Source: Agapetus fuscipes (taxonomy: Eukaryota; Arthropoda; Insecta; Trichoptera; Glossosomatidae). From it: DNA of 64,000 nucleotides. The notes under the pieces were generated by a model. The model saw nothing but the letters and a program-made list of their open reading frames with translations, searched no databases and was not told the origin of the DNA. This document shows positions 13,516-62,715 of this stretch, piece after piece; positions within the stretch are counted from its first letter, which is position 1; every line of letters begins with the position of its first letter. Where the stretch lies: positions 16,863,960 to 16,927,959 of the forward strand of contig OX637333.1 in assembly GCA_951799405.1 (NCBI GenBank), written 5' to 3'. The translations under genes and the position numbers were made by a program.

Positions 13516-13784
13516 CCAACCTATAAGAAAGGTTGTGGTATAAAAATAAATACTCACGTAATCGAAAACAAAGCTGTTTTTCTTTTATCATTAATGATGA
13601 ACGATTACAAAGTTAATGCCTCTACAATCAATAAAATTAGTTTTTTTATTTTGTAAGTCCACATGGGGCATTTGTGGGCGCGAACTTATACCTGTCTGCT
13701 TGTGGGAATGCATTTAATATGAATCTCAAATGGTATGTATCTCTGCAACTTAGATTATGTAAAGAAATACACAAAATAATTTCG

Positions 13785-20699: not shown

Positions 20700-21154
20700 A
20701 TCTGTATGTATGAAGAAAATTATGACTCTGGAGGAAATGAAAGAAGTATGTAAGGACAGAAAGAAATGGCGGTTGATCTGTAATGTTGGCGGCTAGGGTT
20801 TATTAAATTGGAATTTGTTTTTATTTGTAAATGGATATTTTGTATTTGGATATTATTATTTAGTGATGTATAAAATGTAATTTGTCGTGTGTGTGTTCCT
20901 TGACTTATAGGTTGGTATGCGGCTGACCACCCATGCTGTAAAAATGGTTCACTTTGCCAATGTCACCCCTGTCTCAGGGAAGGACGGCAAGAGTTGCAGG
21001 GTGTATGTCCATTTGAGATTTGGTTTTTTATGTTGTAGGTTCACATGAGGCATGTGCAAGCGCGAACTTGTACGTGTCTGGTTGTGAGAATGCATGTAAT
21101 ATGAATCTCCAATGTAACATATCTTTGCAACTTAGATTAGATTAGATTAGATGT
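20700..21154 (+). mobile_element. 5'-truncated LINE A
   Basis: Starts within the last codons of the LINE-A ORF (MTLEEMKEVCKDRKKWRLIC), then the 3' UTR and a complete T repeat (about 20893-21154) ending TTAGATTAGATTAGA. The Penelope-like ORF starts immediately after. Confidence 0.88.
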
Positions 21155-21155
21155 T

Positions 21156-22754
21156 ATGTACAAGGACACAGCTCTTTCACTTTATCAAGATAAAGTGAAA
21201 GCGTTACTTGATCCCACTACATATAAAGTTTTAAAGAAGGACCCTACATCGAGTGTACTGAGGAAAACAAATGATTTGATTAAGAAATCTCCGCATATTG
21301 CTCCTGAAATAAAAAAGGACTTAAGAAGTTCTGAAGCGATACCGGCCCGTCTGTATTGCCTTCCAAAAGTGCACAAAGAAAACACACCACTAAGACCAAT
21401 AGTCACTACCATAGGATCACCTACATACAAACTGTCTAAGTACCTAACTTCACTACTTCAACCACACGTAGGAAAGACCAATAGTTATATTAAAGACTCT
21501 ACACATTTTGTCAACAAACTAAAAGACCTAACGTGCAATCCTTCAGATATATTGGTGAGCTTTGACATTATATCCCTATTCACCATGATTCCAGTGGATG
21601 AAGCTCTTGAATGCATAAGAAAAACTATAGGCAATGACTATATTGACTTATACAAACACTGTTTATCTACCACATATTTTCAATGGAACTCCCACTTCTA
21701 TGAACAGATGTCAGGAGTAGCTATGGGCAATTGCCTTAGTCCTGCCGTGGCTAATCTATATATGGAATTTTTTGAAAAGACAGCAATGGAAACTGCACCT
21801 AAAAAACCAAAATGTTGGTTTCGATATGTTGATGATACCTTCATAATATGGAACCACGGAGAGGAGGAACTAAACAATTTCCTTACTCATTTAAACAGCA
21901 TCAACCATAGAATACAATTTACAATGGAGAAAGAAAATGGTGATAATTCAATAGCTTTTCTGGATGTTCTGGTCACACGCACACACGAAGGTATACTAAA
22001 TTACTAAGTGTATAGAAAGCCCACACACACTGACAGATATCTACACAAATTTTCAAATCACCATCCCGCCCAAAAACGAGGTGTTATAAAAACACTTATG
22101 GACAGAGCAACTAGAATTTGTCAGCCTGCCTCACTAGAAACAAAAATACAACATCTAAAAACAGCCCTAGTGAGAAATGGTTATACAAATAAAGAGATAA
22201 ACCGTTTTACACGGAGAAGAAATGCCTCTACCAAAACAAGTAAATATGACACTAATGCAACAAAGGTCTTTATCCCATATCTCAGAGGTATCACTGATCG
22301 CATTGGAAAAATACTTCTCAAAAATAATATAAAAACCATATACATTCCGACCATGAAGATACAACACGCCTTACGTTCTGCAAAAGACAGACTGGATGTC
22401 CTGGACTCACCTGGTGTATATCAAATACCGTGTAGCTGCGGTTTATCGTATGTAGGCACCACAAAAAGATTTATAAACACACGGGTTAAGGAGCATAAAA
22501 GAAACTGCAGACTAGGGCAGACAGAGAAATCTGCCGTTGCGGAGCACGCCCTGTTAGACAACCACGATATAAACTTTGATGACACCAAAATAATTGCTAA
22601 GGCTCGTGGATATTATGCACGGCTGTATAGAGAAGCCATCGAAATTTATAAAAATAAAAATTTTAACAGGAAAGAAGAGTGTTTGAAACTAAACAATACA
22701 TGGTTGAGCACAATTGAAGTTATGAAAGAGGGTAGTTTTATACCTAACAATTAA
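21156..22754 (+). pseudogene. Penelope-like element: RT plus GIY-YIG endonuclease
   Basis: One reading frame of about 532 codons with a single in-frame TAA at 22005-22007. The RT domain shows RLYCLPKVHK, PLRPIVTTIGSPTYKLSKYL, the LVSFDIISLFTMIPV motif, GVAMGNCLSPAVANLYM and the catalytic RYVDDTF. After the stop, VYRKPTHTDRYLH continues the frame, and a GIY-YIG nuclease follows (GVYQIPCSCGLSYVGTTKR, then the conserved R and the E of REAIEIYK). This domain order is specific to Penelope-like elements. The N-terminus is missing: the frame begins at the LINE-A 3' tail, so the element is truncated or interrupted there. The stop codon would separate the RT from the endonuclease. Confidence 0.92.
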
Positions 22755-22985
22755 GCCACGCCCCTTTTAGAATCTACGTATATAAGACATCGCCCATCGT
22801 TCAGACCTCAGTAGCGAGCAGAACTCTGAAAAAGTCGCCCACAGAGGAGACGAAACGTAAGCTGAAAGTCTTCAAGAAAGAATAAAAAGAAGAAGACAAG
22901 CAAAAACATGGACCACGGTCAAAACCCGGAACCAGAAAATCAAGCTTCCTACATATGTTTGATACAGTACAGCTGACCTCTGTAC
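22755..22985 (+). mobile_element. Penelope-like 3' flank with hammerhead relic
   Basis: Non-coding segment following the ORF. At 22826 it reads CTGAAAAA, then GTCGCC-CACAGA-GGAGAC, then GAA and ACGT, i.e. the hammerhead order with core substitutions. Such motifs lie in the pseudo-LTRs of Penelope-like elements. The core changes (CTGAAAA for CTGANGA) suggest it is dead. Confidence 0.5.
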
Positions 22986-28939: not shown

Positions 28940-29900
28940 TAGCCTCTTTTGATTAATTATGTCTTTAATTAACATAATTTGAAATAAAAAAGAAACTTGT
29001 ATGCGTCCGTGTTTGAAAAAAGATACATCGAAAAATAATCGGATATTTGTTTTAAAGTTCCAACTTCGAGATTTTTTATTTCGTAGCTTGGGAATTTGCA
29101 CTTAAATTTTATTGGCTTAATTGATTGATTATGTCTTAAATTAACATAATTTGAAATAAAAAAGAAACTTGTACGCGTCCGTATTTGAAAAAAGATACAT
29201 CGAAAAAAAAATCGGATATTGGTTTTAAAGTTCCAACTTCGAGATTTTTTATTTCGTAGCTTGGGAATTTCCACTTAAATTTTATTGGCTTAATTGATTG
29301 ATTATGTCTTAAATTAACATAATTTGAAATAAAAAAGAAACTTGTATGCGTCCGTGTTTGAAAAAAGATACATCGAAAAATAATCGGATATTTGTTTTAA
29401 AGTTCCAACTTCGAGATTTTTTATTTCGTAGCTTGGGAATTTCCACTTAAATTTTATTGGCTTAATTGATTAATTATGTCTTTAATTAACATAATTTGAA
29501 ATAAAAAAGAAACTTGTACGCGTCCGTATTTGAAAAAAGATACATCGAAAAAAAAATCGGATATTGGTTTTAAAGTTCCAACTTCGAGATTTTTTATTTC
29601 GTAGCTTGGGAATTTCCACTTAAATTTTATTGGCTTAATTGATTGATTATGTCTTAAATTAACATAATTTGAAATAAAAAAGAAACTTGTATGCGTCCGT
29701 GTTTGAAAAAAGATACATCGAAAAATAATCGGATATTTGTTTTAAAGTTCCAACTTCGAGATTTTTTATTTCGTAGCTTGGGAATTTCCACTTAAATTTT
29801 ATTGGCTTAATTGATTAATTATGTCTTTAATTAACATAATTTGAAATAAAAAAGAAACTCGTATGCGTCCGTGTTTGAAAAAAAATCCATCAAAAAATGT
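28940..29900. repeat. Satellite array, ~172-bp monomers in alternating pairs
   Basis: The phrase AGAAACTTGT recurs at 28991, 29162, 29337, 29509 and 29681, and AGAAACTCGT at 29852, i.e. every 171-175 bases. Monomers alternate between two variants (ATGCGTCCGTGTTTG and ACGCGTCCGTATTTG), indicating a dimeric higher-order unit. The gypsy element at 30004 inserted near the end; a diverged monomer continues at 37284-37520. Confidence 0.9.
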
Positions 29901-30003
29901 TCAATACTGTTATAAATAATGTAAATTTAAAAGAAAAAAAATTCATAGTTCGGAACTTTTTATAACTTTGTTTTTAGGTGCGATGATGTATAATATTATA
30001 TAT

Positions 30004-30520
30004 TGTTATGTAAATATAAATATTAAAATAAGTATGGGTAGTTATAGTGTTATGTAAATATAAATATTGAAATAAGTATGGATAGTTATAGTTATAAGAA
30101 TCCTCAAAAGTATTGGTAGGTAAGATCGATAATTATGTATAAGTGTAGAATTCTCTAGGCTAAGTAGGTATTTGTTATAATTATAGGAATACTGTATTAC
30201 ATTTGTAGGTAGGATTTTGGTTGTATCTCTAGGTAGTACGTGAAGCGTCGAGAAGTAATAATTACTCTGGAACCGTCTGGCGACTTTAGTTCTGGATCAT
30301 ACTGCTCGGAAGAGTATAAAGGTGCGAATGGCCTGCAGAGCGGGCCAGTATCATAGCGACTAACAAACACATCGAAGCCATCTGATCAGTGAACCGAAAC
30401 CAATGGAATAATCGAGAAAGTAGTGTGAAAATAAATTTTGTAACTGTGTAAAATAAATAACTAATGAAGAAGACCTGTGTATTTTTAATTTGAAGACAAT
30501 TGAACCCTAATTTCGTAACA
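30004..30520 (+). repeat. 5' LTR
   Basis: Starts TGTTATGTAAATATAAATAT and ends TAATTTCGTAACA. The first 44 bases are duplicated in tandem within the LTR. A TATAAAGG box lies near 30315, the likely start of transcription being shortly downstream. Confidence 0.93.
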
Positions 30521-31182: not shown

Positions 31183-32549
31183 ATGGCAACCAAAGTGAAC
31201 ATCAAGGACCTCAAAGTCACTGAGCTTAAAAATGAGCTTCTGGAGAGGGACCTGGAGACCTCAGGAGGGAAGGCGGCCTTACAGGCACGCCTCATGGAGG
31301 CCTTAGAACAGTCAGGCGAAGACCCGGCATATTTTGTCATGGCGTCTGGAGGGGACCGCGCCTTGGACGAGCTAAACCTCAGCATCACCGGAAACTTCAC
31401 TTCCATGGAGGAAAAGCTGAAAGGGGAGATGGCTGACAACGCCAAGACCCTGAAAGTGGAGATGGCTGACAACGCCAAGACCCTGGAGGAGAAGATGGCT
31501 GACAACGCCAAGACCGTGAAGGAGGACCTGACCGGGCTGGAGGAGAAGATGACCACCAACCTGAAGGAACCGACCTGAAGGTGGAAATGGCTGACAACGC
31601 CAGGAATCTGGAGGAAAAGGTGTCCCGAAATCTCACAACCCTGAAAGGAGAAATGGAAGAGAAGATGACAGCCCTGAAGGGGGAAATGGAGACTCGTATA
31701 TCAAGCCTGGAGGACCGTCTGCGTGCCGAGCTGGCTGACAAGTGCCAGATGGAGTCCACCAGAATATCCCCCAAAGACGGCCTTCACGACGAGACCGACC
31801 AGGGATGCTCAACTCCAACCAGGGTCACTAGAGGGGATGACGACCCTTCGCTGTCGAAGCACAACCTTCCGACCTTCGACGGGAAGACGTCGTGGGAGGA
31901 GTATTTGACCCTCTTTGAGACGGCTGCCATGATGGGAGCCTGGAGCCAGCAGAAGAAGGCTTCGGTTCTCAGCCTGTCGCTCCGAGGAGACGCTCTCAGG
32001 GTTCTGCAGGCCATACCCCTGGACAACCGTGGTGACTTTGGGCAGCTGAAGCAGCGCTTGGACATGCGCTATGGCCACAAGTGCCTGGAGCAGCTGTACA
32101 AGTCGCAGCTGAACACAAGGGTGCAGAAGCCCAACGAGAGCCTCCAGGAGTTTGAAATGGACATCGCCCGCCTGGTACGAGACGCTTACCCGACAGCCTC
32201 CGACGACATCTGTGAGAGCTTGGCAGTGGACAAGTTCCTAAATGGATTGCGGGAATGGGAGACGCAACAAGCCGTAAAACTGGCCCATCCCAAGGCTTTG
32301 AACGAGGCGCTCAGCCAAGCTCTCGAGTTTGAGGCTGTCAAACAGTCCATCAGGGGCCACGCCAGGGTTCGTGCAGTCGAGGCAGGTGAGGTCAAGCTAC
32401 CTACAACCGAGGAGCTAATTGAAAAAGTGCTGGAACGTCTGAGACCTCGAAGACGAGACCCACGCTGCTGGAACTGCGGACAGCTGGGCCACCTTAGCAC
32501 CAAGTGTCCCAAGCCTCAGAAACCCAGAAAACAGGCTGCGGAAAACTAG
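31183..32549 (+). pseudogene. Gag with N-terminal SAP motif, frameshifted
   Basis: Two pieces in different frames: 31183-31578 and 31581-32549, broken by a one-base shift in a run of coiled-coil repeats (units of MADNAKTL). The N-terminus (LKVTELKNELLERDLETSGG, KAALQARLMEAL) is a SAP-type helix-extension-helix DNA-binding motif, unusual for a retrotransposon Gag. The second piece has a retrotransposon capsid region (WEEYLTLFETAAMMGAWS, LRGDALRVLQ, YKSQLNTRVQK) and a C-terminal CCHC zinc knuckle (CWNCGQLGHLSTKC). It normally forms the particle shell. The ATG at 31183 is preferred as the first ATG after the leader. Confidence 0.85.
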
Positions 32550-35500
32550 AAAGGGTTAATGGGAAGGGGCAACCGTTGACCCACGCTGGAGAGGCCCTGA
32601 AAGCTGCTGCTACTGTCGCAACCGTGAGAGGAAAAGCCAGCAGCATTTTTATCAATGGCATAATAGATGGAGTAACTCGTGAACTACTGGTGGACACGGG
32701 AGCAACCAGGACAATTCTGAGACGCGACATAGTGGCACGAGGTAAGCAGATTGCACCAACAAAGTGGTCTCTGCACACCGCCACGGGAGAGTCAGCACAG
32801 GTGTATGGGGAGACGATTGCCACCTTCCAAATTGGCAGCACCACTTTTGATCATCGGACGTTGGTGGCCAACATTGAAGAAGACGTTATATTGGGAATGG
32901 ACATACTGGACAGATTTGGGTGCAGTTTAAATTTAAAGAAAGGGTCCATTAAAATTGGAAATGAAGAAGTCATCCTGCAAAGACGGAAAGAACTGGCTGC
33001 ACGTGTTATCCTAGCCAAGAATACCGAAGTGAAGGGGCGATCCGAGATGATAGTGAGTGCCCGCCTGGATTCCAGTAGTACAAATGACCAAATCTGTATG
33101 ATAGAACCGGAGAACATGGACAATGTTAACAAAGGAGTCATGGTGGCAAGAACAGTGATTCGCGCAAAGGAGACCATTCCTGTCAAGATCATGAATGTGA
33201 ACAGCTACCCAGTTAAAATGAATGAAGGTTTTGTTTTGGGCAGATGTGAGAGGATAACTTCCATTGTGCAACAGATGACAAACATGTCATGCGAAGGAAA
33301 CAAATTGTCAACACAATTGGAAGCCCTGGTCCACGACGCTTCCCAAGGTCTAACCGAGGAAAACAAACGGAGAGTGAGGAGTTTGATCTGCCGCTACCAG
33401 AACATTTTCGAGGACTCTAATGGCCGTCTGGGAAGAACCAAGGTAGTGCGACATAGCATAGACACCGGAGAAGCGAGACCAATAAAACAGGCTCCAAGAA
33501 GACTACCCTTTGCAAAGCGGGAAGAAGCTGACAAGATCATCAAAGACATGAGCAAGGATGGCATCATAGAACCATCAAGTAGCCCTTGGACATCCCCGGT
33601 GGTACTGGTGAAAAAGAAGGATGGTACCACGAGATTTTGTGTGGACTACAGACTGCTCAACGATGTTACGAAAAAGGATAGTTACCCTCTGCCAAGGATT
33701 GACGACACCTTGGACACATTGGCAGGATGCACCATTTTTTCCACATTGGACCTGAAAAGTGGCTACTGGCAAGTTGAATTGGATGCCAAAGATAAGGAGA
33801 AAACTGCATTCTCGACTGGATCTGGACTTTGGCAGTTCACCGTGATGCCATTTGGCTTATGCAATGCCCCCGCCACGTTTGAAAGGCTGATGGAGAATGT
33901 GCTGCGAGGACTGTCATGGGAAACCTGCCTGGTATACTTGGATGACATAATCATCCTGGGAAAGGACTTCAACCATCAGTTGAGAAATCTGGAGCAAGTT
34001 TTCGGGCGACTACAAGACGCTGGACTGAAGCTCAACCCGAAAAAGTGTAACCTGTTCAAGAAACAAGTAAATTACCTGGGACACATAGTTTCTCAACGTG
34101 GAGTTGAAGTTGACCCTGCCAAAATCAAGGCAGTAAGAGACTGGCCCGTGCTGAAGGACAAACATGAAACTAGGAGTTTCCTGGGGCTGTGCACTTATTA
34201 CAGGAGGTTTGTGCCAAGATTTGCGGACATTGCAAAACCGCTCACCAAGCTTACGGAAGAAAACACTCGCTTCCATTGGAGTGATTCCTGCGCACAAGCA
34301 TTTGAAGAGCTTAAGGGAAGATTAACAAGTGCCCCCATCTTGAGCTACCCACGAAAAGATGGAAAGTTCATCCTGGATACCGACGCTAGTAATGTGGGGA
34401 TAGGAGGCGTCCTTTCCCAAATACAGGATGGGCATGAGACTGTTCTGGGTTACTTCAGTAAAGTGCTTTCCAAGCCAGAACGAAATTATTGCGTGACCAG
34501 ACGAGAGCTTCTTGCCGTGATAAAATCAGTGGAACACTTCCGCAAATACTTGTACGGGAGAAAATTCACACTACGGACTGATCATGCTGCACTGGTTTGG
34601 CTTCTGAAATTCAAAAACCCAGAAGGGCAAGTGGCTAGATGGATTGAAAGGCTCCAGGAGTATGATTATGACTCCGAACATAGACCTGGCACGCTTCATC
34701 GAAATGCGGATGCATTATCCAGACGACCATGCGCCAGTGACTGCAAACATTGCAGCAAGATGGAGGACAAGGTAGCAATTGTCCAAAGGACGACCACCGA
34801 AGATGAGGACTGGCAAGATGAAAAATTGGCGCAAGACCAACTGAATGATCCGGACTTGAAGTATGTGATGGAATGGGCGCGAGAAGGAGAAAGGCCAACC
34901 TGGGAAAAACTCGCCCCCTTATCACCAACTGTCAAGGCTTATTGGGCTCAATGGGGATCCATAGTGATAGAAGGAGGGTTTCTGAAACGAAAGATCGAGA
35001 AGGAAGACGGCACACTTAGAAGAAAGCAAACCCTCGTTCCGAGGAGCCGAGTACCGGAAATCCTTGGACTGCTGCATGGAGGAACTTCTGGAGGACATCT
35101 AGGCGTTAAGAAGACGCTGGAGAAAGTGAAAGAGCGATTTTACTGGATCAACTGCAGCGAAGACGTCAAAGATTGGTGTCGAAAATGTGTAACCTGTGCA
35201 ACGGCCAATGGACCGCAAAGGAAAAGGCGAGCACCAATGCGTCAGTACAATGTTGGCAGCCCCTTTGAAAGAATTGCCATCGACATAGCTGGCCCATTTC
35301 CTACAACTGAGAAGGGTAACAAGTACATCATGGTGGTGATGGATTACTTCAGCAAGTGGGTGGAAGCTTACTCAATCCCTAACCAAGAGGCCGTAACCGT
35401 GACTGAAGTTCTAGTTACCGAATTTATCAGCAGGTTTGGCGTACCCCTGGAATTACATTCTGATCAGGGAAGGAACTTTGAAGCTGCTATCTTCCAGCAA

Positions 35501-36766
35501 ATGTGTGAGCGGCTAGGGATCTACAAGACCAGGACCACTGCGCTACATCCACAGTCTGATGGAATGGTGGAAAGGATGAACCGTACCGTGGGGAGGTACT
35601 TAGCCAAAGTAGTGTCCAGCCATCAGCGGGACTGGGACCGACATCTGCCTTTGTTCTTATTGGCTTACCGGTCGGCTGTTCAGGAAACGACGAAGAAGAC
35701 TCCCAGCAGCATACTGTTTGGGCGAGAAATGCGACTTCCTTGTGATCTCAAATTTGGCTGCAAACCAGGTGAAGACCTAGCCGGAGAAGACTATGTGACA
35801 GACCTTCGCAGGAGGCTGGATGACATCCATGATCAGGTCCGCATGAACATCGGGGAAGCCAGCGATCAAATGAAGGAGCGCTATGACACCAGAGCTGACA
35901 GCATGGGGTACAAAGCTGGTGACTGGGTGTGGCTTTTTGACCCCAAGAGGCGCCAAGGATACTGTCCGAAACTTCAGCGTTCCTGGGACGGGCCGTACGA
36001 GATCTTGGAGCGCATCAACGATGTGGTCTACCGCATAAAAAAGAGACCAAACGGAAAACCAAGGGTCGTGCACTACAATCGCCTCTCACCATACCTAGGC
36101 GATAATGATGACCAACCAGCCCAAAAAGTACGACAGTGCGTCGCATCCGAAAGATCACCAGCCTTTGAGACGTTCTGGGAGAACGCGAAGGCAGGGCAGA
36201 AGTTTCGCCATGGAGTGACCACAGAAGTCCACAAGGACTTATTTGAGGTCACTAGGGACCACACACTGGCATGCAGTGTACCGGAAGATCTAGATATGTC
36301 TAGAGGAATTGCACGGGTCTTCCGATACAAATTCGGAGAACCGCAACCCTCGAGCAGCCCGCAAGGAAGAGCTCTGAGACTACCGAAGGGGCGTCAACAA
36401 GCATACTGCCTGGTTGTCCCGGATTCCAGCAACCTGGAAGAGGACTACAAGGCATTGTGGGACGGCCTTGTTGAGCTGCGTGACTACATGTTGGAGGATC
36501 AGCAGGCGCGTCTGGCAATACCGAAGATGGGTGGCGGCCGCGCTAATCGAGACTGGCGGATAATCCGGAGTATGATTGAAGCAGTGTTCTCGGGAGTCGG
36601 CATCAGCGTCATGGTGTGCTGCGAGCAAGCGCAGCCGAGAGCCAGTGGGGAGAAATCCGTGGACTGCCACTTCTTCCTGACCACAGGGTGTCGACGTGGA
36701 TCAGCATGCCCCTACCTACACAGAGTCAAGACTGTTCCGGGACGAAACAGTCTAGGTGGGGGGTAG
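32504..36766 (+). CDS. Pol polyprotein with C-terminal macro-like domain and CCCH finger
   Basis: A single open frame of 1420 codons, overlapping the Gag end in the -1 frame, so probably made by -1 frameshifting. Protease DTGA at residues 64-67; reverse transcriptase with FSTLDLKSGYWQ and YLDDIII near 477; RNase H with DTDAS near 626; integrase zinc motif around 857-900, DDE at about 926, 986 and 1022, and a GPYEIL motif at about 1164. Residues about 1250-1375 resemble TARG1/OARD1-type macro domains: DHTLACSVPEDLDMSRGIA, FRYKFG, then an IPKMGGGRANRDW loop and the final beta strand ISVMVCC. A CCCH zinc finger (CHFFLTTGC...CPYLH, C-x7-C-x5-C-x3-H) follows at about 1388-1406. The stop codon abuts the 3' LTR. 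The macro loop lacks the Asp of the usual catalytic position as I recall it, so it may bind rather than cleave ADP-ribose. Confidence 0.9.
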   Translation: MSQASETQKTGCGKLERVNGKGQPLTHAGEALKAAATVATVRGKASSIFINGIIDGVTRELLVDTGATRTILRRDIVARGKQIAPTKWSLHTATGESAQVYGETIATFQIGSTTFDHRTLVANIEEDVILGMDILDRFGCSLNLKKGSIKIGNEEVILQRRKELAARVILAKNTEVKGRSEMIVSARLDSSSTNDQICMIEPENMDNVNKGVMVARTVIRAKETIPVKIMNVNSYPVKMNEGFVLGRCERITSIVQQMTNMSCEGNKLSTQLEALVHDASQGLTEENKRRVRSLICRYQNIFEDSNGRLGRTKVVRHSIDTGEARPIKQAPRRLPFAKREEADKIIKDMSKDGIIEPSSSPWTSPVVLVKKKDGTTRFCVDYRLLNDVTKKDSYPLPRIDDTLDTLAGCTIFSTLDLKSGYWQVELDAKDKEKTAFSTGSGLWQFTVMPFGLCNAPATFERLMENVLRGLSWETCLVYLDDIIILGKDFNHQLRNLEQVFGRLQDAGLKLNPKKCNLFKKQVNYLGHIVSQRGVEVDPAKIKAVRDWPVLKDKHETRSFLGLCTYYRRFVPRFADIAKPLTKLTEENTRFHWSDSCAQAFEELKGRLTSAPILSYPRKDGKFILDTDASNVGIGGVLSQIQDGHETVLGYFSKVLSKPERNYCVTRRELLAVIKSVEHFRKYLYGRKFTLRTDHAALVWLLKFKNPEGQVARWIERLQEYDYDSEHRPGTLHRNADALSRRPCASDCKHCSKMEDKVAIVQRTTTEDEDWQDEKLAQDQLNDPDLKYVMEWAREGERPTWEKLAPLSPTVKAYWAQWGSIVIEGGFLKRKIEKEDGTLRRKQTLVPRSRVPEILGLLHGGTSGGHLGVKKTLEKVKERFYWINCSEDVKDWCRKCVTCATANGPQRKRRAPMRQYNVGSPFERIAIDIAGPFPTTEKGNKYIMVVMDYFSKWVEAYSIPNQEAVTVTEVLVTEFISRFGVPLELHSDQGRNFEAAIFQQMCERLGIYKTRTTALHPQSDGMVERMNRTVGRYLAKVVSSHQRDWDRHLPLFLLAYRSAVQETTKKTPSSILFGREMRLPCDLKFGCKPGEDLAGEDYVTDLRRRLDDIHDQVRMNIGEASDQMKERYDTRADSMGYKAGDWVWLFDPKRRQGYCPKLQRSWDGPYEILERINDVVYRIKKRPNGKPRVVHYNRLSPYLGDNDDQPAQKVRQCVASERSPAFETFWENAKAGQKFRHGVTTEVHKDLFEVTRDHTLACSVPEDLDMSRGIARVFRYKFGEPQPSSSPQGRALRLPKGRQQAYCLVVPDSSNLEEDYKALWDGLVELRDYMLEDQQARLAIPKMGGGRANRDWRIIRSMIEAVFSGVGISVMVCCEQAQPRASGEKSVDCHFFLTTGCRRGSACPYLHRVKTVPGRNSLGGG

Positions 36767-37283
36767 TGTTATGTAAATATAAATATTGAAATAAGTATGG
36801 GTAGTTATAGTGTTATGTAAATATAAATATTGAAATAAGTATGGATAGTTATAGTTATAAGAATCCTCAAAAGTATTGGTAGGTAAGATCGATAATTATG
36901 TATAAGTGTAGAATTCTCTAGGCTAAGTAGGTATTTGTTATAATTATAGGAATACTGTATTACATTTGTAGGTAGGATTTTGGTTGTATCTCTAGGTAGT
37001 ACGTGAAGCGTCGAGAAGTAATAATTACTCTGGAACCGTCTGGCGACTTTAGTTCTGGATCATACTGCTCGGAAGAGTATAAAGGTGCGAATGGCCTGCA
37101 GAGCGGGCCAGTATCATAGCGACTAACAAACACATCGAAGCCATCTGATCAGTGAACCGAAACCAATGGAATAATCGAGAAAGTAGTGTGAAAATAAATT
37201 TTGTAACTGTGTAAAATAAATAACTAATGAAGAAGACCTGTGTATTTTTAATTTGAAGACAATTGAACCCTAATTTCGTAACA
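36767..37283 (+). repeat. 3' LTR
   Basis: Same sequence as the 5' LTR with one visible difference in the first 25 bases (ATTGAAAT for ATTAAAAT). The polypurine tract GGTGGGGGG (36755-36763) overlaps the last Pol codons, directly before the TAG stop. Confidence 0.95.
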
Positions 37284-38042: not shown

Positions 38043-40378
38043 ATGGCTGAAAATGGGTATTGTAAAGCGCAGTCAGACAATTTACCCTCAATAACCCTAG
38101 AAATGGCGTGTTTCTACATGATGAACAATACGAATTATTTAAGTGCAGAAACCCGTGGTGTAAAAGCTACCAGGTAAGCCATTACCAGTCATCTTGTATA
38201 CAATATCATATTGAGTTGTTTATAATGACGCTTTATTTTGGCATAATATGTTTCATAAAAAGTGGTACGTGTTGTTTACCGCGTCCTGCGTGACTATCAT
38301 GTGTTTATTTATTTTTAATTTCTCCATGATAAAAGAGCGCCGTTTAAGTGTGTGTCACATCTAAAGGGCCCTCACGATCATGAATGAGATATTTTATGAA
38401 GGTGCCGTTTTAGTTCTCCCTTTAAAATGACAACAGATTCCAAAACCCTCACTCCCTAGTATGAAGTTAATATTGATAATGATGGGATGTTCCATGTGGT
38501 GTATTTTACAAATAGTTCTGCGTTTGCAAATAGTTGAGTACTTAGACTGAATGCTTTTTATATTTGCCTTTTTATTTTATCTTAACTAATTCATACTGTT
38601 CATTATAGTTCATCAAGAGACGACTATGGGGACAATGCAGTTGGCTATGTCCAGGTCAGAAGGGATGGAGACATATGTACGGCAAAAGGGAAAGTGACTC
38701 CAGAACATAAGGTCCGTTCCACGTGCTATGCAGTGACGCTCAAATGCAATGAGGCAGCGGGTGTTGTGGAATCGTGCATTTGTGCAGACTGCCCAGCTTC
38801 TCAAGGTATGTTCTACCTAATGTAATGCTTATATCAATGATTTAATATGGATTTTAAATGCTAATACAGTGGTACCTTGAGATACGAGTGCCCAAACACA
38901 CAAGGTATTTGTGACATTTGAGATTCAAGGAACGGCTAGCTGCGATGCTGCACACAGCCCGCCAGCTTACTGCGCCTGTACTTTGTGCTTCTCGCGCATT
39001 ATCCCTTTGGTATTCCATGGGTTAGAGATCCTCATTAAAAGGATCCTTGAGGAATATCTGGGTGGGAAAAGAAGAGTTGGCAGACCTAGGCTGAGATGGG
39101 AGGATGAGGTGAGGAAGGACGCAAACCAAGTACTGCAGGTGACAGATTGGAAAGCTGCAGCGGTAGACAGGAGGAGTTAAAGGCGAAGGCTGATGGAGGC
39201 CAAGGGGAAATATGAGCTGTAGGAACATTGAAGAAGAAGATTATTTCAGTGTGCTTTTTTACCTCGTTGTCGAAGCAACTTTGCTAAGTTTTTCTAGGGG
39301 ATTGAGCTTTTTGTGCATTTTCATACTTTGTCACATTTCTTTTATATCCAAACATCATATCATATCATAACAAGTAATACCTTATTATTAATTGGAAATG
39401 TGTTTTGCAGGAGGCTGTAAGCATGCGACTGCATTTTTGTTTTGGGTTCACCGCCGGAGCCAAGAGCCTGCTACAACTGAGACAAAATGCTACTGGCAGC
39501 GCTCCAAATTATCTCAAGTTGGGAAAAATATAAAGTTTATTAAATGTTCTGATTTTGGCCTCGTCAAGAAACCTAATAATATGCCATCAAATAAAAATAT
39601 TTTGCGAGAGGTTATTGACGGGGCCATTAATCGGAATATTGATAATGTTCTATTTATGAAATATAATAAAAGCTGTACTATGGAGCAAAAGATGAGTGTC
39701 CATCAACTTATAGAAGATTTTATGGATGTTGGTGACTCAGCCGAGGATTTTTTAAATTTTGCCATGCAAGCCATGTGCCAAAAGACCTGCGATGCTCTTG
39801 GTAAATCGACTGCAAAGCAGTCAGACTGCAGTTTGTGGCACGAGCTGCGCTATGGACGCATTACTGCGTCTAAATTTTATGAAGCTGCTCGATGCCACAC
39901 ATCTGATGGGTCCCTGACTGCAAGTGTACTCGGTGGAAAAACCATCGAAACCAAGAGCATGAGCAGAGGGAAAATATTGGAAAAGAAGGTGTTTTTGCAA
40001 TTAAAAACTGTTTTTAAAGACATAAAAAATTGTGGCCTTTTTATCAGCACAAATTATCCCATTTTTGGGGCTTCCCCTGATGCAATTACTAATGACTTTG
40101 TCATTGAGATAAAATGCCCGATGGTTGACGACTGGCAGAAAAAGTATATGCACCATAACCAGCCCAGTGCCAAATACATGGCGCAAATGCAGCTACAAAT
40201 GCATCTGACTAAAAAAAAAAAAGGCATTTTCTGTGTAGCTACACCTAGTTTTGAGGAAGACAGCCAAGTAGTCATCATATATGTAAGTTATGATGAAGAT
40301 CTTTGTATTAATTTAATAACCGAGGCAACAAACTTCTGGAAAAAAAATATATTTCCGAAGTTGTATCATCCAGATTAA
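38043..40378 (+). CDS. SWIM zinc finger / YqaJ-type nuclease, complete
   Basis: Three exons: 38043-38173, 38609-38805 and 39411-40378, giving about 431 residues; both introns are GT-AG (GTAAGC, GTATGT donors). Exon 2 carries CICADC and exon 3 starts GCKH, making a SWIM finger C100-x-C102...C112-x-H114 split by the intron. The nuclease domain has RITAS near 259, FGASPDA with D333 and IEIKCP with E342 and K344, the PD-(D/E)xK signature of YqaJ/lambda-exonuclease proteins. The likely activity is DNA exonuclease; its part in transposition is inferred. An upstream in-frame ATG (37860) exists but it would add a hydrophobic, unconserved stretch, so the ATG at 38043 is preferred. Intron 2 contains a LINE fragment. 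The reading frame is intact. Confidence 0.88.
38905..39240 (+). pseudogene. LINE C-terminal fragment in intron 2
   Basis: Reads EYLGGKRRVGRPRLRWEDEV, RKDANQVLQVTDWKAAAVDR, a C-terminal pattern of arthropod LINE polyproteins, stop at 39178. Unlike LINE A or B in wording. Confidence 0.6.
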
Positions 40379-44395: not shown

Positions 44396-46822
44396 CTACT
44401 TTTTTATCAAAATGCTTTGCATATTAATAATTCCACATGCTATGGTAATGATATTATCCACATATGGAATTAGATTATGGTCAATTGTTGCATGCATTTT
44501 GAGCATTTGAAACTCTCGAACTCTACTGATCACACGTTCGACGTGTATGCGTAAAGCCGCTATACTCTTGGCGTCTTGTACTTCTGTACGAGTTAATTTA
44601 ACATTCTTTAGAACTGAGGGAGGACGCACTAAATGCGCTCCTTTGGTCTCTAATATATGAGCTATGTTTTTGAAGCCCCTATCAGCCATAACCCACATAC
44701 CACATGTCACATGATCGAAAAAACCACAATCTTCTGCTATGGTGGAATCTGTGGCACGGCCTCCATAGCCGCGGGAAATGAAATTTACAACCCCATCAGG
44801 CGTACATGAAATAAGGAATTTCAATGCATTGCATCCCTTATAGTCAGACCATGTCAATGCTTGATGAAGGGGATTTTTAGGTTTTTCTATTTGAACCTCC
44901 AAGCAGTCTATTATTGCCTGCACTCTCCAATACTTCGATCTGAATGCCTGTGGTAAATTTTTTCTGATGTCTCTGTGTTCTGGCCAAAATATAAACACTT
45001 CTAGCCCGTGAGCCAAAAGTGGCAAAGTTTTATGGAATATCCTACAAACAGATGACGTTGATTTTCCAAAATGCATACCTAGAATCTGGTATGAAAGATT
45101 TAAGCGAATTTTTTTTAATGTCATCATAATATTTACACATGGAATGTGCAGATTTCGCTCTAAAACACTCAAAATAAAAACCATGTCTTTTGGGATACCC
45201 AAATACATCTGCGGATGATTTTCTATCAGCATTACATACTGTTCACTGATAGACTTCCCCATCTCATGTTCATTTTCTTGAAAAGAATAATCATCAGAGT
45301 CAGTACTACACACATACTCAGAATGTGAAGAGTTTGAAGGTGACAGTGTGACAACATCATCAATTTCTCTATCAATATCTATATCTGGTGAATTAAATTT
45401 ATTCCTCATTGGTGAACAGGCAATGGTGGACATGGGCTTTTGAAACGAAGCCGAAATTCCTACACTCCGATACTTCGGTCGCAAACTAACCTGGCAACCA
45501 AAATGTTTTGTTGGACCAGCAATCACATTACCAGATGGCTGAAGATGTTGGCTCACATCATCTAAAGTGAATGCCTCAGGATACTGAGTTACAGCATCTT
45601 GTGAAGTCGAGGGCAGAGGATTTTGCACAGCATCTTGTGAAGTGGAGGGCAGAGGATGTTGCACAGCATCTTGTGAAGTGGAGGGCAGAGGATGTTGCAC
45701 AGCATCTTGTGAAGTGGAGGGCAGAGGATGTTGCACAGCATCTTGTGAAGTGGAGGGCAGAGGATGTTGTACAGCATCTTGTGAAGTGGAGGGCAGAGGA
45801 TGTTGCACAGCATCTTGTGAAGTGGAGGGCAGAGGATGTTGCACAGCATCTTGTGAAGTGGAGGGCAGAGGATGTTGCACAGCATCTTGTGAAGTGGAGG
45901 GCAGAGGATGTTGCACAGCATCTTGTGAAGTGGAGGGCAGAGGATGTTGCACAGCATCTTGTGAAGTGGAGGGCAGAGGATGTTGCACAGCATCTTGTGA
46001 AGTGGAGGGCAGAGGATGTTGCACAGCATCTTGTGAAGTGGAGGGCAGAGGATGTTGCACAGCATCTTGTGAAGTGGAGGGCAGAGGATGTTGCACAGCA
46101 TCTTGTGAAGTGGAGGGCAGAGGATGTTGCACAGCATCTTGTGAAGTGGAGGGCAGAGGATGTTGCACAGCATCTTGTGAAGTGGAGGGCAGAGGATGTT
46201 GCTCAGCATCTTGTGAAGTGGATGGCAGAGGATGTTGAACAGTATCTTGTGATACACTTTGCTCACATGATTTTAATACCTCACATTCATCCATAATGCG
46301 TTTTCTTTTCCCACTTTCAACTGTTTTCTTTATTGGGGAGATTTTATTCCTCTGACATTCGAAGAATCGAGGATAAATGTTCTTCTTTAATATGAGATTG
46401 CCTCCCACCATCTTATGTCGCACGAAATTCTCCAAATCCTCTTGTAACTGTAAAAGAAAAAAAAACGTAAGTCTTCATAGGTAGGATATTAATTTCAAAC
46501 ACGTTTCAAATTTCAAACACGTTTCAAATTTCAAACACGTTTCAAAGTTCACTGCTGTTGATTGTAGGTTATTAACAAAGACACAAACGTGCGTATGGAG
46601 AGTATTTAACAAAATAAACATTACACTTACATTAAAATGGTCCTCACAGGCATAGCAGCGGGTTTTATTTGCCAAAGGTTGGCCTCTCTTCATAACTTTA
46701 CACCATTGCCTCCTAACGATGGGATCTAGGGGAACACTTATATATGTTTTATTTGGGGTTACAACGGTAGTGTTTTTGCACCGTGGCACAATACAATATT
46801 TATAAAACTCTACCGAAGGCAT
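44396..46822 (-). CDS. THAP-domain DDE transposase, copy 2 (2 exons)
   Basis: Exon 1 is 46822-46631, exon 2 is 46447-44396 (GTAAGT donor, TTTTACAG acceptor), about 747 residues. The THAP finger has C10-x4-C15 and C59-x2-H62. The helix-turn-helix region (LKKIRLNLSYQILGMHFG, SSVCRIF) precedes the catalytic core with D578 (IIDCLE), D653 (MADRGF) and E701 (HVERVISR). The spacings of 75 and 48 residues equal those of copy 1. The linker is expanded by about 18 copies of SQDAVQHPLPST. The ATG at 46822 gives M-P-S-V-E-F, matching the THAP start; one further upstream at 46846 is possible. Frame intact, likely functional or recently so. Confidence 0.9.
45590..46250. repeat. 36-bp coding minisatellite, about 18 units
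   Basis: The plus-strand unit contains GTTGCACAGCATCTTGTGAA then GTGGAGGGCAGAGGAT. Most units are identical; variants lie at the edges. It encodes SQDAVQHPLPST in the transposase linker. At 36 bases it keeps four or more of the six frames open, which creates long spurious ORFs on both strands. Confidence 0.97.
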
Positions 46823-47378: not shown

Positions 47379-50300
47379 ATGGCGGCCCCATCGAATGACG
47401 CGGCGAATCTCGTTGAAGAATTTGAAGAATCGTTTCAGGTGAGAAAAAAGCTTCCATACTTCTGCACTATTACTGGTTGAAAAATGAAATTTGATATTTT
47501 ACAACAAATTTGTTTTCAGCAGATAAAAAAAATCAATGTGAGGTTATAATACTTATTTGGTGAGTGCTGTTTTTGTCTGAAGAGCTCTCTTCGAGCTTGG
47601 TCGTTGCTGTATAAAGCGCCAATTTTCAAGCAAGACCCAGTTGCTGTAAGGCTGGATGGACCTTTAGTGACCGGTCTTTGGTAATGGTACAGTGGTGCCT
47701 CACACAACGAACGCCTCGCACAGCGAACGCTGCACACAACGAACTTCCTGTTCGTTCATTTCACGATTTATACAACGAACTTCGCTTCACACAACGAAGT
47801 CGCCCGAGCTTCCACGACTGCTTCGCCCGAGCTTCCACGATCGCTGCCGATGTATTGCATACTCCCTCGCAGGCACTGCAGGCAATCGTTAGTCACTGCG
47901 CTTAACTTACGCACATATCGCGGCAATCGTTCTTCATTACGAATTAAATCACGCACGTATCACGGCAGTCGTCCTTTTAAGTTAAACTCAAGATTTTTTT
48001 TATATCATGGCTTCTAAAAAAAGCAGGAAGGTGATTTCTGTTGAAATGAAACAGGAAATAATTAGAAGGAGTGAATGTGGGGTAAAACAGTGTGACCTCG
48101 TCAAAGAGTTTGGCCTCAGCAAGACCACCATTTTGACAAATAAGGATGCAATCAAATCAGCTGAAGCAGAATCAGATGAAGCAAACAGGATCAACGATCT
48201 TTACTCCGATACTCTTGTCCGTTATTTCCGGCAGTTGTTGGAGAAAAGAGAAAAACAAACGACTTTGGACAGGTTTTTCATGAAACCATCGGCCAAAAAG
48301 AAGAAAATGGATAAAGATGTGCAAGATTCGGTAGACTCTACTAAATCTGTCTTAAAATTAAAAAAAATATGTTTTTGTTTGATGTATCTAAATAAAAAAA
48401 AAAAAAAAAAAAAAAATTATGTCATCATCCTTTATTATATTACTCCAGGCCATCGTCATTCGCTTTGAGTTTCGATTTTCAAAATTAATGCCATCACAGC
48501 AGATGAAATACATTCGCGAAATATGGGAAATAAAATTTTGTATATATTATGCTGCAAAAGTGTACAATTCGCGTATGTGTTTGAATCCCCTACTAAAATA
48601 CACTTATAAACCCTTATAATATTAATAGACCCTTTTGTTTTTATATCGAAATACGTATGAAAATATATTGACATCTAGCGGCAAAATTGGAAAGTTTTTT
48701 AATATTTTCTTTTATTTGATTCAAAATTAAAAAAAAAACAAACAAAATAAAAATGGATTTAAATCTGTTATCTAAGTTGCAAAGATATATAACATTTGAG
48801 ATTCATATTACATGCATTCCTACAAGCAGACATTTGTAAGTTCGCGCTTACACATAATGCATGTTGACTTACAACATAAAAACCCAATCTCAAATGCAAC
48901 TCTTGCCCACTTTTCCTCAAACAGAGATGAAATTTGCATGGTGAACCATTTCTCTCAGTATGGGTGGACAGCAACATACTAACCTATAAGTCAAGGAAAT
49001 TATTTTGTTTAGTTCTATAATCTTAGTTGCAAAGATACATACCATTTGAAATTCATATTAAATGCATTCCCACAAGTAGACAGGTAAAAGTTCGCGCTTA
49101 CAAATGCCCCATGTGGACTTACAACATAAAAACCTAATCTCAAATGAACATAAGCCCTGCAACTTTTGCCGACTTTTCCTCAAACAGAGATGAAATTTGC
49201 ATGGTGAACCATTTCTTACAGTATGGGTGGTCAGCCACATACTGACCTATAAGTCAAGGTAATTATTTTGTTTAGTTCTATAATCTTCGTTGCAAAGATA
49301 CATACCATTTGAGATTCATATTTATTAGGTATATAAATTTTATCTATAGAGATATATAATACCTATCAGAAATAATCAGCAGCATTGAACAAATTATTGT
49401 TGTAAATTGTATTGTAACTGAGTATTCTTACAGTGACACTGTTATGTTTAGTCTATCTTATATATAGTTTAAAAAATTTTTTGAGGAATTCAAAAACACT
49501 GTTTATTTTCACATGAATATATTTAAAAAGATTACAATCTTTAGAGTAAGTTACTAACGCTTTCGACCTAGAAGGTCATCATCAGGTATCTTTTTTTCAT
49601 CTCATACCTGATGATGACCTTCTAGGTCGAAAGCGTTAGTAACTTACTCTAAAGATTGTAATCTTTTTAAATATATTCATGTGAAAATAAACAGTGTTTT
49701 TGAATTCCTCAAAAATTTTTTTAAACTATAACAGTATGAATTTTCACAGTGTTAATACACAAACAATACAAAATATCTTATATATACTTATAAAACCAAA
49801 AAAGCGTTCGTTGGTAATGCGATAAAATGGTGAAGGACTAAACGGTTTTGGCTGTCTTTCGTTTCAGAATAAAGTACGTAATCTGAGAAGGGTTATAGCG
49901 TACAAAAAACTTGATAAAATAACGCAGAACATGTTTAAATTTGTGAAATGCTGAACGTCGTTTTTATATGGGAATTGATCATTTCCAACTTCATCTAATT
50001 GACAGATTTTTGTTCCATATTCAAATTTCATGAAATGTGTTCGGTTTGAAATATTGTAAGAGGTTAAACAAAATCAAATTAATAAAATAAACTGGTAGGT
50101 ACAAAATTTGAAAATGGAATAAAAGATTTTATTCATCATTCATTCAAATTGAGTGAAAGAGCACAGAATGACTTCTCTGACAATAAAAAGATGTTTTGGA
50201 GCTGGGTGAGACAAAACAACGAAAGTTGTAAGTCCACAACTCCGGGAATCAAAAATGTCAGCGGAGACATTCTGTGGAATAAAGAAGATGTAAAAAAGAG

Positions 50301-56300: not shown

Positions 56301-59300
56301 TTTTTTTTAATAAATGGTTACTACGTTCCTTTTTTTCGTATGAATTTGAATTTTCGAATGGCGAATAGGGGGGGGGGGGGGGGGGGCGCCTTAAAAAATC
56401 TCGCCCAGGGCGCTGGTAGTGCTAAAACCGGCTCTGGGCATTGGCAAAAGTGAACCAAGTTTTACTACATACTCTATCTTCTTACTTAATATTCAACTTT
56501 CTATGTGCAAACTTGAGCTTGAATCATTCATACGAGGTAACAAATCAAAGCTAAAATGAACAAAATTAAGAAAATATGAAGTTTGTATCATCAATAAATT
56601 GTGAAAAAAGGATTAGGTACATTTTTTCCGAATCTAAACTGCCAAGGTATTGGGGATTCACAAAATATGCATTCTCACAAGCACACATGTATAAGTTCGC
56701 GCTTGCACATGCCACATGTGAACCTACAATATTAAAACCCAAATCTTAAATAAACAAACACCCTACAACTCTGGCCGACCTTTCCTGAAACAGGAGTGAT
56801 ATTGGCAAAGTGAACCATTTTCTACAGCATGAGTGGTCAGCCGCATACCAACCTATAAGTTAAGGAGCATAAACACAATGATCTAAGTTGCAAAGATATG
56901 TATCATTTGAGATTCACATTGAATGCATTCCCACAAGCAGACATGCATAATTTCACACTAACACATGCCGCATGTGGACCTACAATATAAAAAAAATCCG
57001 AAATAAACATAAGCCCCACAACTCTTGCCGATCTTCCCTGAATCAAGTGTGCCATTGGCAAAGTGAATCATTTTCTGCAGCATGGGTGATCAGCCGCAAA
57101 CCAACCTATAAGTCAAGGAACATACACAACAAATTATGTTTTTAAAATCAATAAACAATAATATATATGGACATCCAAAACAATGATCTACCCTAAATTA
57201 TCTTATTGATTTTACTTCTTCTAATATCAATCAATATGTATACATACACTGTACATCAACGATTGCAACTAGCTTTATTTAAAGCATCATTTAAAACCTA
57301 TAAATCTTTAATAATTTGATTATTTTTTAATGTACACAGAAAAGGTTTCCTTCTGCCCAATAGAATGACAGCATTCTTTCATTGGTAATAAACAATGAAA
57401 TTATGCTTTAAATACCAATTACAGTGTGAAAATGACAAAAGATATAAAACTTTCATATACACCTCCTGAAACTTAAAAGGCTACAACAACAACTGCAATC
57501 CATAGTACTTCAATATCTTGAAATGAGCCCAATTTCATTTGATATAATGCCCATCAAAATATGCACGCTCAATTGTTTTAAGTTATTGGGCGATGCCGTC
57601 TCACTATAATAGTTACAATGATCACTTCAAAATAAGATTTCTTCGCTCATCTTTTCCATTTTCTGAAGAACAGCCATTCCCAAATTTACAAATCCACAAA
57701 ACTATTGAATCTCATTTATAAAAATAAAGGCAGGATAAAATCTGCCGGGTCAGCTAGTAAAAAATATAAGTGAAATTACCCTTTTGTAACGTCTACGTCA
57801 TGCGGCCAAGGTGCTAGGGATGAGGCAAACAAAATTTTTGTTTTGGTTGTTAGGAACCGTACTTAGTTTATTAAAATTAAATAAATATAAAATGCTGGTG
57901 CTCTTCTCATCTCTGTCATGTATCTTCGTAGTGATTGGCGGGGCTATACCGACTACGCTTACGTGTCAACACCCGTAAACATATGCTGGAGCCTGCGCAC
58001 ACGCCGGTGCGCACGCCCCTGTGTACCCCTGCGTATGCGCAGCCACCCCCCAACGCTCCCACCCCGCCAATCACAACGAAAATACATGACTGAGATAAGA
58101 AGAGCGCCAGCAGCCAGCCAGTTGCCAAAAGCAAACGGAGGATAAAGGTGCCCCATCGCTTCGAGTCTGAAAATGTTCCCCGCTTGAGGGAATGAAATGT
58201 CGGTATACAAAATTACTGCAAATAGAACATGGTCTAACTCGAGAAAAACTTAATCATTGAACACTGACCATGAAAGTGAAAGTGAAAGTTCACGCTGACG
58301 TACATGTATGTCCATCCGCCTTGAAAGGTTAACATTTAAAATTCATATACAATGCATGTTCACAGACACATGTAAGTTCGCGCTGACAAATACTGCATGT
58401 GTACTTGAAATTCAAACCTCAAATGAACATAAATCCTGAAACTTTTGTTGACCTTCCTTGAAACAGGGGTGACACTGGCAAAGTGAACCAAGTATTTTAT
58501 GCATAAATGTGCCGGTCCGTAGTTTAGTGGTAACACTTCGGACTCTGAATGGGAAGGTTGTGGGTTCGATTTCCGGCGGAGCACAAAACATATACCATTT
58601 ATATTTTTAAATTTGCTCTTCGCTGGGTTGAAAAATTCACAAACCTTTACCAATGACCGGTCACTAAAGGTCCATCCACCCTTACAGCAACTGGGTCTTG
58701 CTTGAGAATTGGCGCTTTGTAGCGACGACGATCAAGCTCGTAAAAAGGTCGATAGCTTAATTGGTAGAATATTATCTAGGTTTGTTGCAGTAACTTTGTG
58801 AAAGTTCATCTTTAAAATTTTTAAAATAATAAAAACTTTGTTTTAATTCACTGTGAATTTATTTTTACGGTAGGTTTTAAGGTAGCACCCGTCGATGGCA
58901 GATATTGCACTGCCGAAACTAGTAGTGCATTACGAAAATAAACTCACAGTGAATTAAAACAAAGTTTTTATTATTTTTTAAAAAATTTAATTGGTAGAAT
59001 ACATTCCATGCTGAGAGCAAGGGTTCGATCTCAAGGTTTATTCAGCCTTCACAAGAAATGAGAACCAGCCCTCCTGGGAGCTGGGAAACCCCCACTTCTA
59101 CTGAAAGTGGTTGGTGTGAGGCCGGCCCCCTTACCTGTAAAAATAAATAGGTCCCGAATCGCCACATGCGACTCCTTCGGGGATACCGCAGGCAAGAAGT
59201 TACACTATATGTGTAGCTTAGTTGCGTTTAATGTGCCAAACGTGCTTCTTATCTTAGTGGGCAATTTAAGCCTTACAGCCTAAGACCTTCACAGCTTGGA

Positions 59301-62408: not shown

Positions 62409-62715
62409 AATCACATTAAATTTGAAAGAATGAAAAAAACGGATTTTACTGACCGTGCAAAAGAGAAGAACGGTGTTCTCTAAGTTTCATCGAAGTCATA
62501 TCTGACGTCTTCAGGAGACGTGTGTCCTCTATAAAGAGGAACCACGAACATCTTTATAGAGGACACACGTCTCCTGAAGACGTCGGATATGACTCCGATG
62601 AAACGTAGAGAAAATCGTTCTTCTCTTTGGCACGGTCAGTAGAATCCGTTTTTTTTCATTCTTTAAAATGTCTAACGAGCGTAATCATAATTTAAAATCT
62701 AAAATCACATTAAAT
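62409..62715 (+). mobile_element. Fold-back retroelement with hammerhead-like core
   Basis: Thirteen-base duplication AATCACATTAAAT (62409-62421, 62703-62715). Arms of about 115 bases (AAAGAATGAAAAAAACGGAT and complement) and a 38-base tail next to the right duplication. The T repeat ending at 62402 is its immediate neighbour. Confidence 0.87.
62567..62612 (+). ncRNA. Hammerhead-like motif
   Basis: TCTC (helix I, 62570-62573), CTGAAGA, extra C, helix II GTCGGA-TATGAC-TCCGAT, GAA, palindromic ACGT (helix III), A, GAGA (helix I). All helices pair; only the extra base before helix II is irregular. Confidence 0.55.

Follow-up and report, generated by a model that had tools for sequence, protein, structure and literature searches.

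Fold-back insertions with hammerhead-like motifs in a caddisfly genome, read as truncated copies of Penelope-like elements

Short insertions built of two inverted arms raise the question of whether they form a class of element of their own or are the debris of a larger one. Four of them, starting at 49454, 62409, 58757 and 12886, lie in a 64,000-nucleotide stretch of the caddisfly Agapetus fuscipes (GenBank assembly GCA_951799405.1, contig OX637333.1, positions 16,863,960 to 16,927,959 of the forward strand; hereafter the window). All four show one plan, namely inverted arms, a 13-15-bp target-site duplication, a single tail and a type I hammerhead-like motif. An initial annotation had described this plan and suggested a distinct class mobilised by Penelope elements. 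We report that the arm, hammerhead and tail of the 49454 and 62409 insertions are the 3' end of Penelope-like elements (PLEs) of the same genome that bear open reading frames (ORFs), and both are therefore 5'-truncated PLE copies. The other two are very probably truncated PLE copies as well, given the same plan and similar tail openings. At a probability of roughly 90%, the fold-backs as a whole are 5'-truncated PLE copies shaped by two-strand target-primed reverse transcription. Their parts are as follows, the arms corresponding to the pseudo-long terminal repeats (pLTRs) of PLEs.

49454-49466: left target-site duplication of the 49454 insertion, 13 bp, TATCTTATATATA, exact repeat
49467-49589, strand -: its inverted pLTR arm, tailless, with 126/127 identity to the right arm
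49604-49730, strand +: its direct pLTR arm; arm plus tail 82.7% identical to the PLE array L069
49731-49773, strand +: its tail, 43 nt; its ATG at 49736 starts MNFHSVNTQTIQ, which is the N-terminus of the PLE ORF on C15
49774-49786: its right target-site duplication, 13 bp, exact repeat
62409-62421: left target-site duplication of the 62409 insertion, 13 bp, AATCACATTAAAT, right copy at 62703-62715
62422-62537, strand -: its inverted pLTR arm, tailless, 89.0% identical to the PLE L066
62551-62669, strand +: its direct pLTR arm; arm plus tail 91.8% identical to L066
62670-62702, strand +: its tail; an ATG at 62668 opens MSNERNHNLKSK, matching MSNDRNHNLKS of L066
58757-58771: left target-site duplication of the 58757 insertion, 15 bp, TTAATTGGTAGAATA, right copy at 58987-59001
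58772-58811, strand -: its tail; an ATG at 58809 opens MNFHKVTATNLD
58812-58865, strand -: its direct arm
58866-58990, strand -: its inverted tailless arm, paired part 58935-58990
12886-12898: left target-site duplication of the 12886 insertion, 13 bp, ATTAGTTTTTTTA, right copy at 13636-13648
12899-13005, strand -: its inverted tailless arm, hammerhead core from 12989 downward
13212-13261 and 13531-13594, strand +: its direct arm, split, hammerhead core at 13228
13595-13635, strand +: its tail, with the open frame MMNDYKVNASTINK

The arms of the 49454 insertion are separated by a 14-base loop, and the inverted one spans 49463-49589 when four bases of the duplication are counted; its outer end precedes the ORF start codon by some 6-10 nt, a position that recurs across copies. 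The 62409 insertion has the same order with the tail at the right (110/119 aligned arm positions identical), and the 58757 insertion lies in the opposite orientation with the tail at the left (52/56). The 12886 element ends at 13648, and its right arm is interrupted at about 13262-13530 by a later insertion, a SINE-like (short interspersed nuclear element) sequence with a TTAGATT-repeat end; since it sits inside the arm, it is younger than the 12886 insertion. The 12886 loop also contains SINE-like sequence, matching the flank of the PLE locus L073.

The shared plan announced by the initial annotation thus stands, with duplications (exact repeats), arms and a one-sided tail in each of the four elements. 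Its duplication length of 13-14 bp agrees with the 13 bp of the 49454, 62409 and 12886 insertions but not with the 15 bp of 58757. Its unique tail is indeed one per element, but the sequence is not unique, being the start of a PLE ORF where this could be shown (49454 and 62409). In all four the tail holds an ATG with an open frame and is missing from the inverted arm, and the openings of the 49454, 58757 and 12886 tails look alike.

The link with Penelope that had been proposed is borne out by the parents, which were sought in the genome assembly (G000, 618 Mb). On C15 lies a tandem PLE array; the open frames of its three listed units measure 516, 811 and 811 aa. One stretch of it, L069, has the arm and a hammerhead of the 49454 type with an extra base, together with an ORF that begins MNFHSVNTQTIQNIING and opens MNFHSVNTQTIQNIINGSLAQK; a middle piece of this ORF, L096, has a reverse transcriptase domain (RVT_1, 1.5e-12) and is 32% identical to the PLE of the window over 339 aa (E=5e-49). 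In L026, a truncated copy of the 49454 family, a GIY-YIG-type C-terminus is followed by the hammerhead and then the tail, the C-terminus matching P0120 at E=2e-9 in a single comparison. A word-based homologue search with the 78-aa L026 fragment gave no candidate with enough shared words. For the 62409 family, a PLE at C17:388751-390283 aligned over positions 11-522 of the query, and its 3' end, L066, contains both the arm of the 62409 insertion and the tail MSNDRNHNLKS. An ORF with reverse transcriptase and GIY-YIG parts was accordingly found for two of the four insertions, those of the 49454 and 62409 families, the GIY-YIG part being read by eye and from annotated homologues with no Pfam call. 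Head-to-tail PLE arrays with regular spacing were observed at C9:17697430-17704442 (2,737 bases) and C15:10618989-10625520 (3,152 bases), with open frames of 516-893 aa.

The window holds a PLE of its own, whose 2249 homologues include arthropods, Anolis and others among the best 120. It spans 21150-22952, with about 26 kb between its end and the 49454 insertion.

21150-22754, strand +: 5'-truncated PLE, with a reverse transcriptase (RVT_1, 7e-14), a GIY-YIG-type C-terminal part and one in-frame stop, at 22005
22820-22863, strand +: its degenerate hammerhead, CTGAAAA, extra A, GTCGCC/GGAGAC, GAA, ACGT
22908-22952, strand +: ORF-start sequence MDHGQNPEPENQASY, with an ATG, in the tail position at its 3' end

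How the copies came to fold back can be read from their relatives. A 27-nt piece of the 49454 tail occurs 1898 times exactly in the genome, and a first look gave 774 candidates for the 58757 family and 1635 for the 12886 family. The 49454 and 62409 families were sampled by taking the 40 top-scoring among 648 and 1889 candidates and keeping 30 loci in each; the queries carried the tail, so that a tail on the direct arm was selected for in both sets. The direct arm stopped at the tail end in 30/30 copies per family (u660-662 for 49454 and u351-356 for 62409). An inverted segment was found by the routine in 16/30 copies of the 49454 family, to which reading added L008 and L027, and in 26/30 of the 62409 family, and single-armed and longer copies occur within both families. 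The outer ends of the inverted arms fell at u604-625 in 15/16 copies of the 49454 family (ATG at u623) and, on the L036 unit, at u325-341 in 22/24 scorable copies of the 62409 family (ATG at u331). Reading of the flanks found a tail on 0/17 and 0/23 inverted arms, one of the latter (L057) extending about 8 bases beyond the ATG. Similarly, nine of 20 copies picked by tail only, the first 20 listed of the 1898 exact tails, had an inverted arm, and none of the nine reached the tail end in alignment. Overall, 0/49 inverted arms examined bear the tail, and most end near the start codon.

A list drawn by arm only (first 100 listed of 628 arms of the 49454 family) gave 27 neighbouring pairs within 1.5 kb, all head-to-head; units are thus inverted and not tandem here as in the four window elements, as the initial annotation had it. 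Nine head-to-head pairs on C1 comprised eight with exactly one exact tail, one with none and no pair with two. Two candidate tail pairs on C1 were considered as two-tailed fold-backs and rejected, one being read as a fold-back nested in another copy (L094) and the other as two separate insertions (L095). The pairs of inner-end junctions were distinct in 15/16 and 24/24 copies (39/40 overall). A fold-back inherited as a structure was rejected, since its junctions vary between copies. The two arms of one copy share variants more than shuffled arms do: at 3 and 6 polymorphic columns they agree in 35/39 and 101/108 cells, vs shuffled means of 0.741 and 0.673, and of 2000 shuffles 3 and 0 reached the observed agreement. 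In L005 and L023 the inverted piece was cut short by the limits of the search and adds no cells to this count. For the inner-end test their ends came from the family-copy listing, the low outer end of L023 reflecting that same cut in an arm that reaches u619. Inner ends lay within 10 nt of each other in 14/25 copies of the 49454 family, vs a shuffled mean of 7.05 (p=0.0002).

These footprints suggest a simple course of events. The PLE endonuclease would nick each strand of an AT-rich target, the two nicks lying some 13-15 bp from each other, and reverse transcription would start from both freed 3' ends, with either one RNA as template or two RNAs of a single source. The complementary DNA (cDNA) of one strand would start about 12 codons into the ORF and give the tail; the second cDNA would begin at the start codon or shortly before it and give the tailless arm. 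Both cDNAs would then halt at variable upstream points and their ends be joined, leaving a head-to-head fold-back between target duplications; where only one cDNA was made, a single-armed copy would result. Two RNA start sites, as they bound the tail in an anole PLE (PMC11167929), one per nicked strand, would account for the one tail, the head-to-head arms and the target duplications. That the tail is an ORF beginning is what one expects of RNA read from tandem PLE units. We infer that the fold-backs form anew, without a separate function of their own.

Several points weigh against this account. The order of events is deduced from footprints. Outer ends lie elsewhere (u212, u292) in 2/24 arms of the 62409 family, and the agreement of variants between arms would also follow if copies derived from different source lineages. 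Inner ends come within 10 nt in only 3/24 copies of the 62409 family (mean 4.76, p=0.93), so that run-off of the two cDNAs at one shared RNA end does not hold generally, and the coincidence is weak in the nine copies of the tail-only sample (4/9, p=0.05). Exact target duplications of at least 9 bp were found in only 17/30 and 15/30 copies, and these are AT-rich repeats counted without a shuffled control. Finally, the 58757 and 12886 insertions matched none of the 13 PLE 3' ends compared, save for the SINE-like match.

What the hammerhead-like motif contributes is a separate matter, for which the following sites in the window are relevant.

49552-49588, strand -: motif of the 49454 inverted arm, core CTGATGA from 49585 downward
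49605-49641, strand +: motif of the 49454 direct arm, helix I TAC/GTA, CTGATGA, extra T, helix II GACCT/AGGTC
62570-62611, strand +: motif of the 62409 direct arm, TCTC/GAGA, CTGAAGA, extra C, GTCGGA/TCCGAT, GAA, ACGT, A
58885-58928, strand +: motif of the 58757 insertion, core at 58889 with two substitutions, CCGTCGA for CTGANGA

The motif of the 49454 direct arm ends with GAA, helix III AGCGTT and A at H17. The core is exact in the 49454, 62409 and 12886 insertions, and the two substitutions that the initial annotation saw in the 58757 copy are real; changed cores also occur in the window PLE, L061 and L063. A hammerhead descriptor, composed after the sites had been seen, matched four window sites (both 49454 arms and one each in 62409 and 12886), vs none in 150 dinucleotide shuffles. 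Pairing was counted by script, since MAFFT alignments misplaced helix II, in 12 sequences comprising the four window elements, the window PLE and seven genome PLE 3' ends. Helix II paired at 58/60 positions with one extra base, vs 23 and 20 with none or two, the core anchors being hand-chosen and an ambiguous GAA picked for best pairing when one base is extra, a choice that biases the count towards this register. Helix I paired at 26/30 positions, vs 7-11 when slid, in ten sequences, L061 and L065 being dropped as near-duplicates. In each of the same ten a self-complementary helix III could be drawn, its length being set per sequence to 4 or 6 bases, in line with the palindromic helix III that had been said to suit dimers. 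Covariation in helices I and II across families, whose absence made up one half of the refuting condition named beforehand, is thus found.

The extra base before helix II, noted earlier as common to the four insertions, is present in all of them but equally in all eight PLE families of the genome with a readable hammerhead (L061/window, L062, L063, L064/L065, L066, L068, L069 and L070), and is therefore no mark that sets the fold-backs apart. Among the 13 PLE 3' flanks (L061-L073), L071 and L073 have decayed hammerheads by eye, and L067 and L072 have none. The base presumably holds the same place as one in a viroid hammerhead. A viroid hammerhead with an extra core nucleotide is mentioned in the available text of PMC11014351. 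An Rfam scan of the window listed no hammerhead match up to E=5, and a genome search with RF00163 gave 0 matches but equally 0 in its 14 control genomes, and is hence uninformative. MicroRNA-like Rfam matches on the arms were rejected, these being long hairpins with scores under the gathering cut-offs of the families.

The hammerhead is probably the element's own minimal, dimer-acting putative ribozyme. Its GAA-ACGTC end overlaps coding starts reading ...ETS... in several PLEs (L063:379-450, L064:329-352, P0010, P0017, P0028, P0074), the Anolis protein P0010 opening with MPAIDVGETSG, and the PLE ribozyme may be partly coding. One could also imagine that the PLE RNA enters integration as a dimer through the palindromic helix III, each RNA templating one of the two opposite-strand cDNAs, and that the hammerhead joint is where synthesis often halts, so that the hammerhead would act as a dimer-linkage signal for double-strand integration instead of or beside cleavage; we regard this reading as unlikely. 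One observation serves solely this dimer reading, namely that 5' ends of the 49454 family cluster just upstream of the hammerhead: 6/20 lie at u480-500, for an expectation of 0.67 if uniform over u1-626 and of 2.25 over u450-626 (p=0.02).

Other explanations have been weighed for both the shape and the motif. Should a single tailed cDNA fold at a palindrome and copy itself into the inverted arm, the arms of one copy would share variants, as they do, and inner ends would often meet near the hammerhead beside self-complementary sequence, as is seen by eye; moreover, the authors of PMC3846280, in the accessible part of that paper, took palindromes at inverted junctions as a sign of self-priming on an antisense template. 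Self-copying should nevertheless carry the tail into the inverted arm, where it was never found, and most outer ends lie at a second recurring position beside the start codon. The absence of the tail from inverted arms therefore disfavours such a snap-back, which we hold to be very unlikely as the general route, while some share of the fold-backs may come from self-priming on antisense RNA. That the motif is a coincidence, or purely a coding constraint with no ribozyme, would fit the altered cores of the 58757 copy, the window PLE, L061 and L063, and the finding, in the available text of PMC11167929, that insertion of an anole PLE in vitro did not require hammerhead cleavage. This is made highly improbable by helices I and II, which covary across families, by the self-complementary helix III drawable in 10/10 sequences, and by published PLE hammerheads, for which one paper speaks in its title of cleavage as dimers.

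The class proposed at the outset would be a distinct, non-autonomous fold-back retrozyme, copied in the fold-back form and dependent on PLEs only for mobilisation. Short copies are common indeed, 19/20 of the tail-picked copies starting no more than about 205 nt from the tail end, and metazoan retrozymes with type I hammerheads exist, for which PLEs are proposed as helpers (PMC7229834). However, the tail is the opening of a PLE ORF, the same 3' ends occur on ORF-bearing PLEs (for two of the four insertions), nearly all junctions differ from copy to copy, single-armed and longer copies belong to the same families, and a retrozyme-type tandem hammerhead unit was seen at none of the four window sites. 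As the tails are PLE ORF starts, and as the inverted one-tail form is already published in what is available of PMC3846280, the proposal of a distinct class is abandoned; we consider an independent fold-back lineage extremely improbable. Truncated PLE copies made by two-strand priming remain the preferred origin.

The window contains further repeats and ORFs. At 45591-46252, 18.4 copies of a 36-base unit (98% match) lie in frame within an ORF (44396-46474, strand -) with a DDE_Tnp_4 transposase domain (1.1e-38) and encode a repeated STSQDAVQHPLP stretch. The ORFs at 507-1556 and 39392-40378 are alike by eye, with YqaJ and alkaline-exonuclease domains. Repeats at 28949-29898, 29999-30092 and 36764-36855 consist of 172-base (5.5 copies) and 44-base units, the 44-base repeat flanking a Gypsy-type ORF (32498-36766) on both sides, perhaps in its terminal repeats. 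The segment 4331-4414, within a transposase ORF (3176-4648, strand -), is strongly self-complementary and matches several microRNA-precursor models below their cut-offs.

The set of footprints bears on Penelope integration, on the inverted ends and the single tail, and on the role of the hammerhead. In this genome 1,898 exact tail pieces from a single family lie beside PLE families with long ORFs. They make a natural footprint set, and its footprints favour two-strand priming from two RNA sites and disfavour snap-back. They also invite caution, in that the tail should be checked for an ORF start before short hammerhead fold-backs are named a new class.

Minimal PLE hammerheads acting as dimers were reportedly treated by Cervera and de la Pena in 2014 and by Lunse, Weinberg and Breaker in 2017. 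Such hammerheads are described in reviews; by the excerpts available, they share with the window motifs a very short or absent helix III, the type I arrangement and the PLE context. Regarding structure, Penelope elements with inverted pLTRs, including Pen2a_Av of Adineta vaga, are described in the accessible part of PMC3846280, and inverted pLTRs with one tail and a target duplication in animal PLEs are found there and in passages of PMC8969392. In its available text, PMC3846280 gives for PLEs of the Pen2a_Av type an adjacent inverted pLTR, a target duplication and a pLTR with a tail entering the ORF start, as well as an optional 31-bp tail on one inverted pLTR and an inverted pLTR shorter than the direct one, as here. 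The window copies differ in keeping pLTR-type ends only and in having duplications of 13-15 bp instead of 8-10, and they carry a hammerhead-like motif, whereas the word hammerhead is absent from the main text of that paper.

Literature on twin priming and Penelope included nothing on PLE integration by title, and that on Penelope, inverted ends and two-strand target-primed reverse transcription yielded PMC11167929 alone, most subscription papers lying outside the scope. According to the part of it available, an anole PLE protein cleaves and extends both target strands, and two internal RNA start sites bound the tail. The Poseidon PLE of Anolis carolinensis (PAc) studied there thus shares with the window copies a pair of start sites on either side of a tail close to the beginning of the ORF, and it also has a hammerhead adjoining the start codon, an AT-rich target and extension of both strands. 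PAc is of a different family, the window PLE being 57% identical to P0010 of Anolis carolinensis, whose identity with PAc is not established, and fold-back products are not described in the available text of PMC11167929. Metazoan non-LTR (long terminal repeat) retrozymes consist of tandem units with RNAs of about 170-400 nt, canonical hammerheads and circular RNAs (PMC7229834). They have in common with the window elements a type I hammerhead and a non-coding, repetitive nature with probable mobilisation by PLEs, but the window elements are inverted, truncated PLE ends with minimal hammerheads. The argument that combines these footprints may be new within the literature covered; the inverted-pLTR form is already known, and the insertions are ordinary in kind.

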